From contig JAFMIA010000024.1 in assembly GCA_017854255.1 (NCBI GenBank), forward strand, positions 1 through 39,712: DNA of 39,712 nt, in the 5' to 3' direction. Within the stretch, counting starts at the first letter, position 1; each line of letters opens with the position of its first letter. The stretch is from Pseudomonadales bacterium. GTDB lineage: Bacteria; Pseudomonadota; Gammaproteobacteria; Pseudomonadales; Azotimanducaceae. Under the pieces are notes generated by a model that saw only the letters and a program-made list of their open reading frames with translations, had not been told where the DNA came from and did no database searches. This document shows, one piece after another, positions 2,936 through 24,069 of this stretch. Made by a program: the position numbers and the translations under genes.

Positions 2936-4105
2936 TTAGGCTCTGAGGCAGTTGACGGCTTTACTGGACAGACTGACCCCACGTCGACCTTGGCGAAAAG
3001 GGTTCCGGTCGTGACCATTCGTCAGGTAAACAAAACTAAGGCCTGACACAGGGTCTGCCCACGCAATTTGGCCACCAGCGCCGCCGTGACCAAAGCTTGT
3101 CGCTGTGCTGCCATGACCAAAGCCGCGAAGGTGTTGGTCTCTCTCGCCCGCAATCACAATACCGAGCCCTCGCAAAACATCAAACCCTAAGTAGGGATCT
3201 TTTAAACCGTGAGTTCGTATCGTGCGCGCACTGAGCAGCGTCTCGGCTTGCCAGGGGACCTGCGTAAAGTCGCTCGAGTCCCCGGAATACCCTAAGAGTC
3301 CTTGATAAAACAGCGCCAAAGTTGCCGCGGTCATAAACCCACCGCCGCCGGGCGTCGGGACTGCTCTGACGTCGGCGGTATTAAAATTATCGATGGCGGC
3401 CTCGGTGACTTCGCTAACGGGTGGCGGTTGCATTTTTCGCTCGGCGTAGTCCTGCGCGGTGGGGGGTGCGCCGACATGTGAAACTGGGACGATCTTGTGG
3501 TGTTCGCTGCTCGGGCAACCCACAAACAGTTCGGGTAGGCCGAGGGGTTCGGCGATCTCTGTTTGAATCAACTCGGCGAAAGCCCTGCCATAGATTTGTT
3601 CGAGAATCTCGGCTAAAGCCCAGAGGCTTGAAGTTGGATGGTATACAAAGCGGCTACCGGGCGGCCATTCCAGCCGCCATTGCTGAAAGCGTGCTTGGCG
3701 CCGCTCAACATCGAAGTAGTCGGTGGGCCGAAAAGGTGCATTGGGGAAGCCCGCGGTGTGAGTTAGTAAATGCTGAACTGTGACCAGAGACTTATCGCCT
3801 TCTTTAAAAGCGGGAATCCAGTTGGCCACAGGGGCCTCTAAGTCCAAGGCGCCCGCTTGCATGGATAACCAGGATAGAGCGGAGGTTATGGCTTTGGTCG
3901 CGGAAAAAATGGGGTACAGGGCTTGATTGCTGGCCGCACCGAAGGTTTCAAAAGCAATCAGTTGGCCTCGATAGGCCAGTGCAAATTGCGAGGAAGGCAA
4001 AAGGCCTGTTTCGATTTCTTGCTGTACCCGAGTCCTAAGGGTCTCAAGGGCGACCGGATCAATTGCGTCGGGCAAGGCGCTGGCGAGGTCTTGATCATAC
4101 GTCAT
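2936..4105 (-). CDS. Serine hydrolase of the beta-lactamase / class C-like esterase family
   Basis: A 389-residue protein of the penicillin-binding-protein-like fold. The SxxK motif is SATK (S68, K71 counted from the chosen start), followed by the usual LTHTAGFP segment. The second motif position reads YHP (Y155) where class C enzymes have YxN. GHGGAGGQ near the C-terminus stands for the KTG/HxG motif. These features suit a family VIII esterase or peptidase-like hydrolase rather than a true beta-lactamase. No signal peptide is visible from the chosen start; a longer start at 4153 would add a short Cys-rich hydrophobic segment with no better ribosome binding site. The gene is divergent from the GG-leader peptide gene. 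Confidence 0.85.
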   Translation of the reverse strand: MTYDQDLASALPDAIDPVALETLRTRVQQEIETGLLPSSQFALAYRGQLIAFETFGAASNQALYPIFSATKAITSALSWLSMQAGALDLEAPVANWIPAFKEGDKSLVTVQHLLTHTAGFPNAPFRPTDYFDVERRQARFQQWRLEWPPGSRFVYHPTSSLWALAEILEQIYGRAFAELIQTEIAEPLGLPELFVGCPSSEHHKIVPVSHVGAPPTAQDYAERKMQPPPVSEVTEAAIDNFNTADVRAVPTPGGGGFMTAATLALFYQGLLGYSGDSSDFTQVPWQAETLLSARTIRTHGLKDPYLGFDVLRGLGIVIAGERDQHLRGFGHGSTATSFGHGGAGGQIAWADPVSGLSFVYLTNGHDRNPFRQGRRGVSLSSKAVNCLRA

Positions 4106-4208
4106 AAGGGGCGGCTCCAAAGACTCAAGCCAAAATAGTAGCACGCAACACACGCGGCAGGGGGCAATCCGATTTTGAGATGATGCCGGATGGGCAGGGC
4201 AATGACCT

Positions 4209-4247: not shown

Positions 4248-4316
4248 CATCGCACTCTCGATACAGGGTTTAGGGTCAAAATCGCGACTCCACAGATAAC
4301 CAATATAGGAGTAACC

Positions 4317-4481
4317 ATGCGAACACTAATGGATGAGGAACTAAAGGATGTGCAAGGGGGGCTAGATTTGGTGGATGCGGCAGCAATGATCGCGTCGGTT
4401 GCAACGTTTTCACCGGTCACGATGGCTTTTGGTTATCCGATCGCGGCCGCGCTCATCACGATTGATGTGCTGTCGGAATAA
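4317..4481 (+). CDS. Double-glycine leader peptide, microcin V / class II bacteriocin-like precursor
   Basis: A 54-codon gene. The ATG at 4317 is 5 bases after AGGAG (4307-4311) and the TAA at 4479-4481 is followed by a hairpin terminator. The first 15 residues, MRTLMDEELKDVQGG, match the double-glycine leader of class II bacteriocins and microcins: MR-L start, hydrophobic residues spaced through an acidic helix, EL four to five residues before the end, and GG. They closely resemble the microcin V leader known from E. coli. Cleavage after GG would release 39 residues that are hydrophobic and Ala-rich, without cysteine and net acidic (LDLVDAAAMIASVATF, then a Pro/Tyr/Gly turn, then IAAALITIDVLSE). 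Such leaders are normally cut by the C39 peptidase domain of a dedicated ABC exporter. None is in this window, and no immunity gene is recognised beside it. It may be a bacteriocin, a signalling peptide or another secreted peptide. Confidence 0.72.
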   Translation: MRTLMDEELKDVQGGLDLVDAAAMIASVATFSPVTMAFGYPIAAALITIDVLSE

Positions 4482-4496
4482 CGTTGATGCCAAAAA

Positions 4497-4533
4497 AAAG
4501 CGGGGATCTGGCTGCTCGCTAGATCCCCGCTTT
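4497..4533 (-). terminator. Terminator of the pnt operon, probably shared with the peptide gene
   Basis: AAAGCGGGGATCT (4497-4509) pairs perfectly with AGATCCCCGCTTT (4521-4533) around an 11-base loop. On the minus strand the stem is followed by a run of eight T, which makes it a strong terminator 33 bases beyond the pntB stop. On the plus strand the T run is only three, so for the peptide gene it would be weaker. Confidence 0.9.
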
Positions 4534-4565: not shown

Positions 4566-5936
4566 CTAGCCAAATTCGCCGATAACGCCCGAGATGCTTT
4601 CTTTTGCATCGCCAAACAACATTCGGGTGTTCTCGCCGAAGAAGAGCGGGTTATCAACACCTGAGAATCCTGAGGCCATGGAGCGTTTTAGCACAAACAC
4701 GGTTCGCGCCTGGTCGACATTGATGATGGGCATGCCGTAAATCGGGCTATCTGGGTCCTCGCGTGCGCTGGGGTTAACCACGTCATTAGCGCCAATCACG
4801 ATTGCAACATCCACGTTCTCGATGCGCGGGTTAATGTCATCCATTTCGACCAACTGTTCATAGGGCACGTCGGCTTCTGCTAATAGCACGTTCATATGCC
4901 CCGGCATCCGACCGGCAACCGGGTGAATCGCGTAGGAAACTTCACAGCCGTTGGCTTCGAGAATCTTGCCGAGTTCTTTCACCACGTGCTGTGCTTGGGC
5001 AACTGCCATGCCATAACCCGGTACGAAGCAGACATTCGAGGCCGCTTCCAAAATATAGTAGGCGTCTTCAACCGAGATCGGTTTGACTTCGCCCTCAACG
5101 GCTTTGGCGGTCTTGGCTGCGCCAAACCCGCTAAAGAGGACGTTGGCTAAGGAACGGTTCATCGCCTTACACATGATATTGGTTAGGATGATGCCAGAGG
5201 CGCCAACCAATGCGCCAGCAACGATCAGAATATTATTGCCGACTGCGAATCCAGCTGCGCAAGCTGCAATACCGGAATAGCTGTTCAATAAAGAAATGAC
5301 AACCGGCATGTCGGCGCCGCCAATCGGAATCACGGCCATTACGCCGAGTAACAAGGCCAGCCCAAGCAAGGCATAGAGGTAAACCGAGGTGGCAGAGGGA
5401 TCCATACAGAAAAGATAGGCACAAGCCACGATGGCAAGTAAAAGAGCGCTGTTGAGAACCCGTTGACCAGAAAAGACCAATGCCGCGCTATTGATACGCT
5501 CGCTCAGCTTGCCATAGGCGATCAAGCTGCCGGTAAAGGTCAAGCCGCCAATCAGGATCGCCAAGACAATGGTCGCGGCTGTGAAGGTCGGCACGACATC
5601 GCCTTCAAAGTAATACAGGGTAGCCCAACCTACTAGCAGGCTGGACGCGCCGCCAGAACCATTAAACAGTGCCACGAGCTCGGGCATGCTGGTCATTGCA
5701 ACCAAGCGTGCTGAGAGTGTCCCGATCAGTGCGCCAACTAACATGCCAACAACGATGACCTCGTAACTCACGGCCTGACTGCCGATAAGACCTGCGATGA
5801 CCGCAATCAGCATGGCCATCGAGGAGAACGCGTTACCGCGTCGAGCGGTTGCGGGTGAGCCCAGCATTTTGAGGCCGAAGATGAACAAGGCCGCAGCAAC
5901 GATGTAAGCAAGATTGGTATAAATTGCGATATCCAT
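4566..5936 (-). CDS. pntB: NAD(P) transhydrogenase subunit beta
   Basis: A 456-residue protein, the usual length of PntB. The first 260 residues or so hold many membrane helices, with family segments such as PELVALFNGSGGASSLLVGW and IGGADMPVVISLLNSYSG. The C-terminal part is the NADP(H)-binding domain III, with PGYGMAVAQAQH, HPVAGRMPGHMNVLLAEA, GANDVVNP and GMPIINVD. The enzyme couples proton re-entry to hydride transfer from NADH to NADP+, giving NADPH. It is the last gene of a three-gene operon, 2 bases after pntAB, and ends before a strong terminator. Identification is secure. Confidence 0.97.
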   Translation of the reverse strand: MDIAIYTNLAYIVAAALFIFGLKMLGSPATARRGNAFSSMAMLIAVIAGLIGSQAVSYEVIVVGMLVGALIGTLSARLVAMTSMPELVALFNGSGGASSLLVGWATLYYFEGDVVPTFTAATIVLAILIGGLTFTGSLIAYGKLSERINSAALVFSGQRVLNSALLLAIVACAYLFCMDPSATSVYLYALLGLALLLGVMAVIPIGGADMPVVISLLNSYSGIAACAAGFAVGNNILIVAGALVGASGIILTNIMCKAMNRSLANVLFSGFGAAKTAKAVEGEVKPISVEDAYYILEAASNVCFVPGYGMAVAQAQHVVKELGKILEANGCEVSYAIHPVAGRMPGHMNVLLAEADVPYEQLVEMDDINPRIENVDVAIVIGANDVVNPSAREDPDSPIYGMPIINVDQARTVFVLKRSMASGFSGVDNPLFFGENTRMLFGDAKESISGVIGEFG

Positions 5937-5938
5937 GA

Positions 5939-6223
5939 TTATTGCCCTCGCTTACTTTTGAACATACCGAGCATGCGATCGGTCACGAGATAACCGCCAA
6001 TGACGTTGATGGTAGCAAACGCAACGGCGGCGCCGCCCAACCAGCTGGCCATGTCATTATCGGTTGCACCAGCGGCTAAAAAGGCGCCGGCCAAGGTGAT
6101 CCCAGAGATGGCATTTGCACCGGACATTAAAGGGGTGTGTAGGGTTGCGGGCACTTTTGAAATCAATTCAAAGCCCAGAAACACTGACAAGACAAGAATG
6201 AAGGTAAGAAATATAATTTCCAT
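5939..6223 (-). CDS. pntAB: NAD(P) transhydrogenase subunit alpha 2 (membrane part)
   Basis: A 94-residue membrane protein equal to the C-terminal membrane segment of fused PntA. Three hydrophobic helices are visible, with the conserved TPLMSGANAISGI segment and a Gly/Ala-rich helix, ending in a basic tail. It forms part of the proton channel with PntB. It sits 3 bases after pntAA and 2 bases before pntB. The split alpha subunit is the arrangement known from Rhodospirillum rubrum and many other proteobacteria, unlike the fused E. coli PntA. Confidence 0.96.
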   Translation of the reverse strand: MEIIFLTFILVLSVFLGFELISKVPATLHTPLMSGANAISGITLAGAFLAAGATDNDMASWLGGAAVAFATINVIGGYLVTDRMLGMFKSKRGQ

Positions 6224-20346: not shown

Positions 20347-22216
20347 CAGGTTGCTCCACGTTAATGGGTTCGGCTTGTTGCCAAAGATTACTCAAACTTT
20401 GTTGTTGAAAGAGGTGATAATATCGGCCTCGTCGCGTAATAAGTTCATCATGATTGCCTTGCTCGATGATGCGGCCGTCATCGATGACCACAATTTGATT
20501 GGCATGGCGAATGGTCGATAATCTGTGGGCAATGATGACGCTAATTCTGTCCTTGAGTAGTGCGCGCAGACCTTGTTCGATCCGAGCCTCGGTTAACGTG
20601 TCAACCGATGAGGTCGCCTCATCCATAATCAGGATCTGTGGATCTGCGAGCAGGGCCCGAGCAAAGGAAATGAGTTGTTTCTGGCCAGCCGAGAGACTCG
20701 ACCCGCCCTCACCAATCACCGTCTCATAGCCGAGCGGCATCGCAATGATGACGTCATGGGCGCCGGCCTGTTTTGCCGCAACGAGAATCTGATCTTGGTC
20801 TGCTGACAAATCTCCGTAGCGAATATTGTCGGCAATTGTGCCAGCAAATAAATGCGAGGACTGTAGCACCACGCCCAGATTCGATTGCAATGCCTGCAGG
20901 CTCCAATCGCGATAGTCCACATCATTAATTAAAATTCGGCCGGCAGTGGGTTCATAAAACCGGGCCAGTAGGCTGATCAAGGTGGTCTTGCCGCCGCCGG
21001 TTGCGCCCACCACGGCGACACTTTGCCCGCGCTGAATCGCCAAATCGATATTGTGCAACACGGGTTTGCCCGTATTGTACCGAAAGCCGACCCCCTCAAA
21101 AGTAATGCGCTCGATCGGTTGGTTAAACGCATCGGGCTCGGCGCCGCGGGTCGTGGGTTGCGCCAGTCTGTCGAGCACCGCTTGGCTGTCTTGTATGTCG
21201 GGTTCAGCTTGGATCAAACTGATGACCCGTTCAGCGGACGCTTGGGCCATTTGCATTTCGGCAAACCAATGGGCGAGTTGCTCTATCGGCTCAAAAAAAT
21301 GCCGAGTGTAGGTTAAGAAAGCGATCAAGGTCCCGGTAGAGATCAGGCCCCAGGCCGACTCAATCCCCCCAACCACGAGGGCAATACCGGTGGCTAGGGC
21401 TGAGAGGGTTAGCACAATCGGTAGATAGATCGCCGCTTGCACCGCATTCGTAATTGAGGCCGCGTGCATACGATCGGTCAAGCGGCCGAATTTATTCAGA
21501 TTGTCAGCTTCTTTCACAAAGACCTTGCTGGTCAAAACGCCCATGATATTCTCGTTGTAGGCGCCGGTGATTCGAGAATTGGTCTGCCGGACCTCCCGTG
21601 CACTGCGCAGGATCCTGGTCTGAAAGTAGCGGCTGATGATTGCCAATAGCGGCAGGCTCAGCAGGATGATCAATCCTAGAACCGGTTCCATAATGAGCAT
21701 CGCGCCCGAAATGCCCAGCATGATGGTGAAGGACCAGAACAGGTCGAGGATGCCCCACGCCATAATATTCGATAACCGTTCGCAGTCTGAGGTCATGCGC
21801 GCCATGAGCCAGCCGACGGGTCGTTCATCATAGTAGGCAAAGGATAACCGCTGCAGATTGGCGAAGCCGTCGCGACGGATGTCGTGGCTCATGTGACTGC
21901 GAAGCTTGCCACCAAACCATAAAAACCCAAGCACAGCGGTGCCTAAGGCAACACACAATACCCCGTACAAGGCGCCATAACCGAGCAGATCGATGTCTTG
22001 GCCATACAGGCCAATATCGTCAATGACCCACCTTGTCACGAGCGGAAAAGAAATCTCAGCGATGCCAACCACGACCGCGCAGAGGGCAAGCAGCACCAAA
22101 TCCTTTGGGTAACGGCGGGCATAGGTTAGTAATTGCGTCCAGACCCCCAGCTTTAAATCTTTGTCGGGCGTGAACTCATCGCTGAAGTTGTCGTCGTCAT
22201 AGAAGGCGTCGCTCAT
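20336..22216 (-). CDS. ABC exporter half-transporter, MdlB-like (consensus ATPase site)
   Basis: A 626-residue fused membrane/ATPase half-transporter. Six helices occupy residues 35 to about 310. The nucleotide-binding domain has Walker A GATGGGKTT (404-412), signature LSAGQ (508-512), Walker B ILIMD (528-532) with the catalytic Glu (E533), and the H-loop AHRLST. The signature deviates from LSGGQ, while the partner has LSGGQ but lacks the catalytic Glu. In the heterodimer the Glu of this protein therefore faces the canonical signature, giving one competent and one degenerate site. It overlaps the partner gene by 4 bases (ATGA) and the GGT-like gene by 11. Substrate unknown; MdlAB homologues are multidrug or lipid exporters. 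Confidence 0.94.
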   Translation of the reverse strand: MSDAFYDDDNFSDEFTPDKDLKLGVWTQLLTYARRYPKDLVLLALCAVVVGIAEISFPLVTRWVIDDIGLYGQDIDLLGYGALYGVLCVALGTAVLGFLWFGGKLRSHMSHDIRRDGFANLQRLSFAYYDERPVGWLMARMTSDCERLSNIMAWGILDLFWSFTIMLGISGAMLIMEPVLGLIILLSLPLLAIISRYFQTRILRSAREVRQTNSRITGAYNENIMGVLTSKVFVKEADNLNKFGRLTDRMHAASITNAVQAAIYLPIVLTLSALATGIALVVGGIESAWGLISTGTLIAFLTYTRHFFEPIEQLAHWFAEMQMAQASAERVISLIQAEPDIQDSQAVLDRLAQPTTRGAEPDAFNQPIERITFEGVGFRYNTGKPVLHNIDLAIQRGQSVAVVGATGGGKTTLISLLARFYEPTAGRILINDVDYRDWSLQALQSNLGVVLQSSHLFAGTIADNIRYGDLSADQDQILVAAKQAGAHDVIIAMPLGYETVIGEGGSSLSAGQKQLISFARALLADPQILIMDEATSSVDTLTEARIEQGLRALLKDRISVIIAHRLSTIRHANQIVVIDDGRIIEQGNHDELITRRGRYYHLFQQQSLSNLWQQAEPINVEQPDGI

Positions 22217-24069
22217 AACAGGTTGCCCTCAGGGGTTCGACTCTGCTGGATATCTCGTTGCACTTGGCCTTGCAATTCACAGAGTTTTCGATAGATCCCG
22301 GGTGTTTGTGACAAAGTCTCATGGGTTCCGATTTGGGCGACTTCGCCATGGTCTAAAACGATAATTCGGTCGGCTTGCATTACCGTGGATAACCGATGGG
22401 CAACGATAACGGTGGTCCGGTTGGCGCGAACCCGTCTGAGATTGGTGAGGATCTGAGACTCAGTGTCGGTATCTACGGCGGACAGCGCATCGTCAAGAAT
22501 GAGGATTGCTGGGTCTTTTAATAGCGCCCTGGCAATGGCGAGGCGCTGACGCTGACCGCCGGAGAGCGTGACACCCCGTTCGCCGACAAGCGCTTCAAAG
22601 CCATTCGGTAAAGCTTGAATGGTGCCCAGTAGATTCGCCGTTGTGACCGCCTCGGTCATGTCAGCAAGGCTTGCTTGGGTTTGACCTATTCGAAGGTTGT
22701 CGGCAATTGAGCCGGCAAACAAAAAGGATTCTTGAAGCACGACGCCCATTTGCGCTCGGACAGACTTTCTAGACAATTGACTGAGGTCAAAGTCATCGAC
22801 CCATAAGGCGCCTTGCTGGGGATCATACAGGCGCAGCAAGAGCTGGATCAGAGTGCTTTTACCCGCGCCAGGTGCGCCCACGAGTGCCACGGTTTCACCG
22901 GCGGCAATGGTAAGGGATAGATTCGATAATACGGGTGGATTACCCGGATGGTGAAAGGTCACGCTATCGAGTTTGATTTGTCCGTTCAGCGGGGCGGTTA
23001 AGGCTTGCTCAAGTTTAGATTCCTCTGGCTCTGACAGAATCTCAGCCATTCGTTTGAGTGCAACCACCGCTTTGCCAGAGTCGGTTAGGACCCGGCCCAT
23101 ATGCCGGATGGGCCAGATGATCATGCCTTCATAGGTGATGAAGGCAAAAAGGGTCCCAATCGTCATGGCATCGGCGAGTACCCAATGGGCGCCAACGAAG
23201 AGAATGAGGCCAACTTGAAACAGGCAGACTATGTCGCTGGCGCCATAGTAAAAGCCTAAAAAACGCATCAAGCGTTGATTTTGATCACGAAACCTTGCGT
23301 TCGCACGGCCAAACTTTTCGGCTTCAAAGTCTTGCCGAGCAAAGGCCCGGACCACGCGAATTCCGGTTAAGTTTTCCTGCAGGACGGTGGTGAGGCTCGC
23401 CTCGGCTTCATCGACCTCTAAGAACATTGCTTTCACGCGATTGAAAAATAACACCGCCGACAGCAGCAAGAGCGGCATCGTGATGAGCGCGACCCCTGTC
23501 ATGGTGACGTCGAGCGACAGTAAAATCGGCGTGACGATCAGTAGCATTAACACCGCGCGACCAATCTCGATGATCTGGCCACTCACAAACACGCGAAAGG
23601 TTTCGATGTCTGAGGTGCAGCGCTGGATCAGGTCTCCGGTATCGGCCTGATGATGAAAGGCGATGGGTAGGTGATTCAAATGGTTCATGAGGGTGTCGCG
23701 CAGGCGCCGCGCCATGCCTTCCGCGGCGACGGCGATTTGTTTCCCCCGTAGGTAGACAAAATAACCGGCAAGGGCGGTGCACAACACAATCAGGATGCCG
23801 GATAATCCCAATTGCATATACAACGCATAATCGTCGCTGAGACCTGAGGGCATAAAGTGCTGAAGCCAGGTTAGATAGGCATCCGGGGCCTCACCGGTCA
23901 AGCGATCGAGCATCGAGCGAGTAATCATGGGTACGGTGAATAGCAGCGCAAAGCTTGCAATCATAGCCAGTAGCGCCATCAGTAAAGGGCCACGAAAGCC
24001 GGCCGAGATGGTTACAAATAGCGGCCAGAGCGCAGGGGTTTTAGGGTGGGTTGAAGCGGTAGCATGCAT
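22213..24069 (-). CDS. ABC exporter half-transporter, MdlA-like (degenerate ATPase site)
   Basis: A 618-residue half-transporter and first gene of the operon. Membrane helices fill residues 28 to about 320. The ATPase domain has Walker A GAPGAGKST (398-406), signature LSGGQ (502-506) and Walker B ILILD (522-526), followed by Asp527 instead of the catalytic Glu (LILDDALSAVD), as in E. coli MdlA and other degenerate-site subunits. The H-loop reads AHRLST. There is no N-terminal peptidase C39 domain, so it does not process GG-leader peptides. It forms a heterodimer with the next gene. It is divergent from the glutathione transferase gene with 190 bases between the starts. Confidence 0.94.
   Translation of the reverse strand: MHATASTHPKTPALWPLFVTISAGFRGPLLMALLAMIASFALLFTVPMITRSMLDRLTGEAPDAYLTWLQHFMPSGLSDDYALYMQLGLSGILIVLCTALAGYFVYLRGKQIAVAAEGMARRLRDTLMNHLNHLPIAFHHQADTGDLIQRCTSDIETFRVFVSGQIIEIGRAVLMLLIVTPILLSLDVTMTGVALITMPLLLLSAVLFFNRVKAMFLEVDEAEASLTTVLQENLTGIRVVRAFARQDFEAEKFGRANARFRDQNQRLMRFLGFYYGASDIVCLFQVGLILFVGAHWVLADAMTIGTLFAFITYEGMIIWPIRHMGRVLTDSGKAVVALKRMAEILSEPEESKLEQALTAPLNGQIKLDSVTFHHPGNPPVLSNLSLTIAAGETVALVGAPGAGKSTLIQLLLRLYDPQQGALWVDDFDLSQLSRKSVRAQMGVVLQESFLFAGSIADNLRIGQTQASLADMTEAVTTANLLGTIQALPNGFEALVGERGVTLSGGQRQRLAIARALLKDPAILILDDALSAVDTDTESQILTNLRRVRANRTTVIVAHRLSTVMQADRIIVLDHGEVAQIGTHETLSQTPGIYRKLCELQGQVQRDIQQSRTPEGNLL

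Follow-up and report, generated by a model that had tools for sequence, protein, structure and literature searches.

The peptidase-containing ABC transporters (PCATs) PCAT1, ComA and CvaB, together with their double-glycine (GG) leader substrates, are the closest described counterparts of the system considered here, and they are alike in the C39 peptidase with its invariant Gln, Cys, His and Asp residues, in the membrane domain and in the leader code. Gram-negative peptidase-containing ABC systems likewise possess a HlyD adaptor. C39 domains recognise Leu(-12), Glu(-8), Leu(-7) and the residue at position -4 of the leader, according to the parts of PMC6363468 and PMC6959990 at our disposal. 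Functional neighbours are found among GG peptides that serve purposes other than the killing of competitors. The available text of PMC4997328 describes EbfG1-4 of Synechococcus elongatus, which act with PteB, as small proteins that bear a GG motif, have a part in forming biofilms and need the C39 cysteine to be secreted efficiently. The Nap peptides of Neisseria resemble bacteriocins and have no detectable antimicrobial activity, as stated in the accessible portion of PMC11798529. NapP (PMC11798529) and FapD (PMC5557850) are, in the excerpts of both reports, stand-alone C39 peptidases serving small peptides or amyloid subunits, a likeness to the peptide described below. The relatives of PCATs termed C39-like domain transporters have lost the peptidase and keep the ATPase (PMC10986499, in part).

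The system described here differs from the PCATs in that its C39 protein lacks the Walker A, signature and Walker B motifs and any Pfam ABC_tran match, and in that the gene of the presumed substrate lies at another locus. Judged from its sequence, the C39 protein falls outside the PCAT definition in the ATPase part only. It appears as the mirror image of the C39-like domain transporters, which have likewise lost one of two activities, to the extent that PMC10986499 was accessible. The mature parts of the EbfG proteins have no homologues in other cyanobacteria, whereas the mature part is conserved through the genus here, and the excerpt of PMC4997328 mentions no dead ATPase in the EbfG/PteB system. 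In the Nap and Fap systems, as far as the excerpted reports go, the C39 protein is paired with an outer-membrane channel of the FapF type, and FapD resides in the periplasm, whereas the C39 protein here is an entire former ABC exporter whose motor is dead. What is new is the putative partner, a C39 protein with a dead ATPase, and the unusual degree to which the mature peptide is conserved. We met no ATPase-dead PCAT in the literature searched, which does not prove that none has been published.

The window, the whole stretch of 39,712 nucleotides analysed here, contains an open reading frame of 54 codons with an ATG start at exactly the position where an earlier annotation made from the letters alone (the sequence-only reading) had placed a small gene with a good ribosome binding site, and the site is present as described (Table 1). 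AGGAG-, AAGGA- or GAGG-like sites precede each of the 11 other copies in the genus. The leader is followed, again as claimed, by 39 hydrophobic, acidic and cysteine-free residues (net charge -4, GRAVY +1.34, mass ~3970), for which the AlphaFold2 model of the peptide suggests two helices with a break near F-S-P; with a mean pLDDT of 73 and a pTM of 0.49, it is only a moderate prediction. A promoter scan returned none. Across 40 simulated windows (first-order Markov, with the base steps of the window), a single leader-bearing frame with ATG and ribosome-site match occurred, i.e. 0.025 per window, so the frame by itself is already improbable by chance. It is conservation that decides the matter. 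A protein search (E<=0.01) matched the peptide in 12 of the 15 genomes of the genus, no stop codon interrupts any of the 12 matches, and the frame-disrupting differences that were to speak against the gene are absent from every copy. The interval 4317-4481 is a real gene.

Table 1. Features of the peptide gene, its neighbours and the rhomboid gene of three relatives (window coordinates unless a locus is named)
Feature	Position	Strand	Basis or remark
Gene of 54-aa double-glycine-leader peptide	4317..4481	+	Homologues in 12/15 genus genomes, the window's own included
Ribosome binding site AGGAG	4307..4311	+	5 bases 5' of ATG; read from sequence
Leader, 15 codons: M(-15), L(-12), E(-8), L(-7), V(-4), G(-2), G(-1)	4317..4361	+	12-copy alignment
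Predicted mature peptide, 39 residues, hydrophobic, acidic	4362..4478	+	Alignment, selection counts, AlphaFold2 model
16-bp hairpin between peptide gene and pntB, A-run on left side	4497..4533		Folding
Beta-lactamase-family serine hydrolase, left neighbour	2936..4153	-	Pfam PF00144; not claimed as the peptide's partner
pntB, right neighbour	4566..5936	-	Pfam PF02233; not claimed as the peptide's partner
Rhomboid gene	L042:8434-9615 (+), L040:8436-9614, L039:1915-2808	Same as peptide gene	PF01694 in L042

The leader has the features given for GG-leader precursors in the excerpted sources, namely Leu(-12), Glu(-8), Leu(-7), a hydrophobic residue at -4, and Gly followed by Gly, Ala or Ser at -2/-1. 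Among the 12 copies, Met1, Leu4, Val12, Gly14 and Gly15 are invariant, position 9 (-7) is Leu or Ile, position 8 (-8) is Glu in nine, Gln in two and Asp in one, Arg2 is nearly invariant, and the remaining leader positions vary. The fixed positions are those recognised by C39 domains, which is the pattern expected if a C39 peptidase reads the leader; cleavage itself is a prediction. The textbook C39-type leader of the sequence-only reading is therefore borne out, and the GG motif is conserved in close relatives, where its loss would have told against the claim. By its leader, we assign the peptide as a new member of the GG-leader (C39-type) precursors.

The peptide gene sits at the same place in every locus examined. 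The serine hydrolase adjoins it on the left in all 11 relatives' loci, and pntB follows on the right in 10, the eleventh contig (L041) ending first; these relatives are metagenome-assembled Gammaproteobacteria or Pseudomonadales with isolate names such as MED698 and SI034, which we take to suggest an origin in sea water. The gaps beside the peptide gene in the 12 loci measure 48-222 bases on the left and 69-380 on the right, and no conserved second frame of immunity-gene size with a ribosome site was found in them (window and 11 relatives). The hairpin between the peptide gene and pntB (a 65-base stretch, -34.4 kcal/mol, z -7.3) resembles a terminator of the leftward pnt genes and perhaps also of the peptide gene, a putative role; the consensus scan did not list it. 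In the three sister genomes whose exporter has kept its ATPase intact (G003, G002 and G007), the gene of a rhomboid-family membrane protease lies between the peptide gene and pntB, starting ~270 bases 3' of the peptide gene; a search of four other relatives' loci did not detect it. Elsewhere in the window, two adjacent ABC half-transporters with Walker A (21287-23868, - strand) possibly form a heterodimer.

The 12 proteins of the genus align without gaps, and 27 of the 54 columns are invariant. Pooled over all pairs of copies, pS is 0.69 vs a pN of 0.16, and pN is 0.285 in the leader vs 0.112 in the mature part; the mature part is thus more strongly conserved than the leader. In the four closest relatives of the window's species, not one of the 39 mature residues has changed, although 52-61% of the synonymous sites of the mature part differ from the window copy. 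The three genomes of the genus without a match can be explained by assembly, and we rejected true absence: no left neighbour of the peptide gene turned up in G004 or G011, and in G008 the contig stops right beside that neighbour. The peptide is therefore present in 12 of the 12 genomes in which the place is assembled. Beyond the genus it is rare. A family-wide search found it in 14 of 200 genomes, the 12 of the genus and two weak relatives in other genera, and an order-wide search with the peptide alignment (390 genomes) gave a full-length match in the window's own genome alone; three further hits spanning 15-23 residues were not accepted as relatives. A phage collection searched with the peptide gave no match. 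One of the two weak relatives, L030 (L105:5525-5824, - strand), is a 95-aa GG-leader peptide of microcin-like look from another genus of the family, which has GG-x-(D/E)-x-(V/I)-D-A and T-M-A-x-G-Y-P-x-A stretches in common with the window peptide and lies beside a small hydrophobic, membrane-protein-like frame (5853-6197, - strand). The other, L029 (L104:1384-1599, + strand), is shorter and more distant, comes from a further genus and has a GG leader and then S-P-A-T...G-V-P-I-A. Neither the 10.5-kb contig of L030 nor the 3.9-kb contig of L029 has a C39 or HlyD match.

These conservation data bear on the possibility that the peptide is an ordinary bacteriocin of the class II microcin type with its immunity and export genes elsewhere. 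Its leader, size and hydrophobic, helical mature part, the weak Bacteriocin_IIc and cerein-type matches, and the microcin-like relative in another genus would fit such a peptide. However, the scores of 14.9 bits for PF10439 (curated cut-off 27.1) and 13.5 for TIGR03949 (cut-off 21.5) leave it outside the Bacteriocin_IIc and cerein families by their own thresholds, and its neighbours are a serine hydrolase and pntB in place of the adjacent immunity gene of class II microcins. The stronger constraint on the mature part than on the leader, the identity of the mature part in five species and the presence in every genome with the place assembled also speak against a bacteriocin, which we consider very improbable. 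The proposal of a new bacteriocin is weakened accordingly, and the description as microcin V-like holds for the leader and fails for the mature part, which is conserved instead of diversified and has no immunity-type gene adjacent. For an arms-race toxin the mature peptide is conserved too well, and an action in the envelope or in signalling is more likely; its role is probably that of an envelope or signalling peptide.

The genome of the window (G000) contains a single C39 match (E<=0.001), on contig C98, where the gene of a HlyD-type adaptor directly precedes the C39 gene on the same strand. The suggestion of an orphan precursor working with a distant exporter is thus partly right: a distant C39/HlyD locus exists, as the genome search proposed by the sequence-only reading was to reveal, but it does not encode an ordinary exporter because the ATPase motifs are absent. 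That the window itself holds no C39 exporter stands, the sole match being on another contig; the accompanying claim about an immunity gene concerns the whole window, and our check covered the surroundings of the peptide gene. C39 matches occur in 13 of the 15 genomes of the genus. The surroundings of the C39 locus were compared in 12 of these 13 (all except G005), and 11 of the 12 have the same gene order as far as the contigs reach, the adaptor being flanked by what we read as a gene of short-chain dehydrogenase type and the opposite side by one of transporter type; the 4-kb contig of G008 shows the transporter-type flank alone. This shared order indicates that the locus was inherited, and since it surrounds ATPase-intact and ATPase-dead forms alike, we rejected horizontal replacement of the exporter. 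A second, ATPase-intact C39 transporter in G003 adjoins a 1005-aa ABC-like protein (L043, G003:C40, 5450-11834), an arrangement presumably reminiscent of NHLM-type RiPP exporters.

The protein on contig C98 has an N-terminal C39 peptidase domain (PF03412, E 1.3e-25) and an ABC transmembrane domain (PF00664, E 3.3e-13), and the motifs of an ATP-binding domain (Walker A, signature, Walker B) are not recognisable in it. Walker A is missing from the C39 proteins of nine genomes (G000, G004, G006, G008, G010, G011, G012, G013 and G014), whose frames comprise 659-713 codons from stop to stop, that of G012 being cut by the contig end. The motif is present as GPSGCGKS at the same locus in G002, G003 and G007, and LLLLDES is found in G003 and G007, with one letter ambiguous in G002. 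In the alignment, the nine dead forms have other residues at Walker A, signature and Walker B, and the region between these motifs and the rest of the domain align. Pfam found C39 in all eight C39 proteins scanned, and ABC_tran in none of six dead proteins vs both intact controls; PF00664 was not listed for two of the six dead proteins (G004 and G008). The peptidase residues Gln9, Cys15, His88, Asp103 and Asp104 are invariant in eight aligned dead proteins. The best solved-structure matches of a profile made from eight dead proteins are the PCAT1 chains 4ry2 and 4s0f, and positions 9-429 and 528-616 of PCAT1 (4ry2) are matched, with 430-527 unmatched. Outside the genus, all 17 C39 loci returned from the 59 matching family genomes carry Walker A, as do 26 of 29 loci in the order-wide search (46 of 390 genomes matched, the window's own included, with some overlap with the 200-genome family set). 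The notion that ATPase-dead forms are widespread was thus not borne out in the loci seen. The three order loci without Walker A have frames of 264 (L132), 368 (L149) and 414 aa, the last cut by the contig end; L132 and L149 belong to other families of the order, and their C39 frames are too short for a whole ABC exporter.

The residual nucleotide-binding domain is still under purifying selection. Among five dead genomes, pN/pS is 0.17-0.26 in the C39 domain, 0.28-0.37 in the membrane domain, 0.43-0.63 in the former Walker A stretch, 0.15-0.37 in the residual core of the nucleotide-binding domain and 0.26-0.38 in HlyD. In a tree of 12 genus proteins and nine family outgroups, built without G005 and without the second C39 protein that G003 and G013 each have, the nine dead forms are separated from the outgroups by a branch with 100/100 support, G008 and G004 being long branches. 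One supported group together with purifying selection suggests that the ATPase was, most simply, lost once and that the protein has been kept since. Members of the dead group have as little as 27-32% identity to the C39 protein of the window's genome.

The loss of the ATPase could mean that the exporter is a decaying relic without which the peptide works, the 54-aa product being a small protein of the membrane that is perhaps uncleaved or is cleaved by another protease. The state of the locus in two genomes and the slower evolution of the peptide relative to the exporter are consistent with decay: G005 has a C39 gene split across two frames, and G001 has remnants of the C39 protein only, with the C39 domain absent, yet an intact peptide gene. 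In G001, the start of HlyD adjoins the end of an ATPase-dead C39 protein (L119:13087-14087, - strand) with no ambiguous bases there; the gap could be a true deletion or an assembly error, and as both G001 and G005 are metagenome assemblies, either defect could be an assembly error. Decay is, however, difficult to reconcile with the purifying selection on the C39 domain and on the residual nucleotide-binding core in a group diverged to such low identities, and the leader positions read by C39 domains are fixed in G001 too. We regard a relic as quite improbable.

A C39 protein retained without its own motor could instead be the inactive half of a heterodimeric ABC exporter, in which the other half-transporter hydrolyses ATP and export proceeds through HlyD and an outer-membrane channel. 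The genome has nine other ABC_membrane matches, each in a frame with Walker A, HlyD is under selection, and the remnant of the nucleotide-binding domain comprises the stretch immediately preceding the former signature as well as the part that follows it. In ABC exporters such parts contact the membrane domain. However, in none of the 12 loci is there a second ABC protein less than 6 kb away from the C39 gene, to the extent that the contigs cover this distance, and both Walker motifs and the signature are gone, which is more than the usual asymmetric ABC pairs lose. We therefore think that such a heterodimer is rather unlikely.

The pairing of the peptide with the C39 protein has both fits and misfits. 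The only Bacteriocin_IIc-like match in the genome is the peptide gene itself (E 0.27, below the cut-off), so that by these searches the peptide and the single C39 protein are each other's sole candidate partner. No further small frames with the leader pattern were found in the exporter loci retrieved. The leader scan, which was confined to the retrieved DNA and has a pattern that misses L029, returned, besides the peptide copies and L030, pieces of pntB, one with a chance ribosome-site match, and two more frames, both without such a match. Nine of the 12 peptide-bearing genomes have a full-length or nearly full-length C39 protein; besides G001 and G005, G009 yielded neither the C39 protein nor its flanking gene. 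In none of the 10 genomes with both genes do the two share a contig. In the family, exporter matches are found in 72 of 200 genomes vs 14 for the peptide, and this co-occurrence is therefore not specific. The exporter also evolves much faster, with 70% identity between G000 and G014 against 98% for the peptide. The loose co-occurrence with a commoner and faster-evolving exporter leaves room for another processing partner of the peptide, or none.

With somewhat better than even confidence, we propose that the peptide and the C39 protein are an ancestral maturation and export pair, in which the C39 protein would now act as an ATP-independent membrane peptidase and the peptide in the envelope or in signalling. 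The ancestor would have been an ordinary peptidase-containing ABC exporter with a HlyD-type adaptor. In the lineage to which the window's species belongs, the nucleotide-binding domain would have lost its motifs for ATP binding and hydrolysis, most simply once, while selection continued to act on the peptidase, on the membrane domain and on the remainder of the C-terminal domain. The genome's sole C39 protein, now presumably a membrane-anchored maturation peptidase, would use its peptidase domain to remove the 15-residue leader behind GG. The accessible text of PMC10986499 states that HetC needs both peptidase and ATPase residues, which counts against an ATP-free reading. In PCAT1, as described in the excerpt of PMC6959990, ATP binding inhibits the protease and cleavage takes place in the inward-facing state; losing ATP binding thus does not predict losing cleavage, and the C39 protein should remain cleavage-competent without it. 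The 39-residue helical peptide might then be released at or into the membrane or its cavity, or be passed to another ATP-driven partner; the exit routes considered are by itself, through HlyD, and with a second ABC protein. More tentatively, and with somewhat less than an even chance, this marine gammaproteobacterial clade may have kept the C39 peptidase, membrane domain, pseudo-nucleotide-binding domain and HlyD as an ATP-free peptidase and conduit specialised on one near-invariant, genus-wide helical 39-mer, which would act on or in the envelope of the cell that makes it.

PCATs couple cutting with ATP-driven export, and a selected natural form that keeps cutting alone would split the two steps by evolution instead of by mutation. 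Such a form would test the view that ATP is required for transport and not for cleavage. The conservation pattern of the peptide argues for a role other than killing, and its gene is a clear example of a conserved, likely functional gene under the usual gene-size limits in uncultured ocean bacteria.
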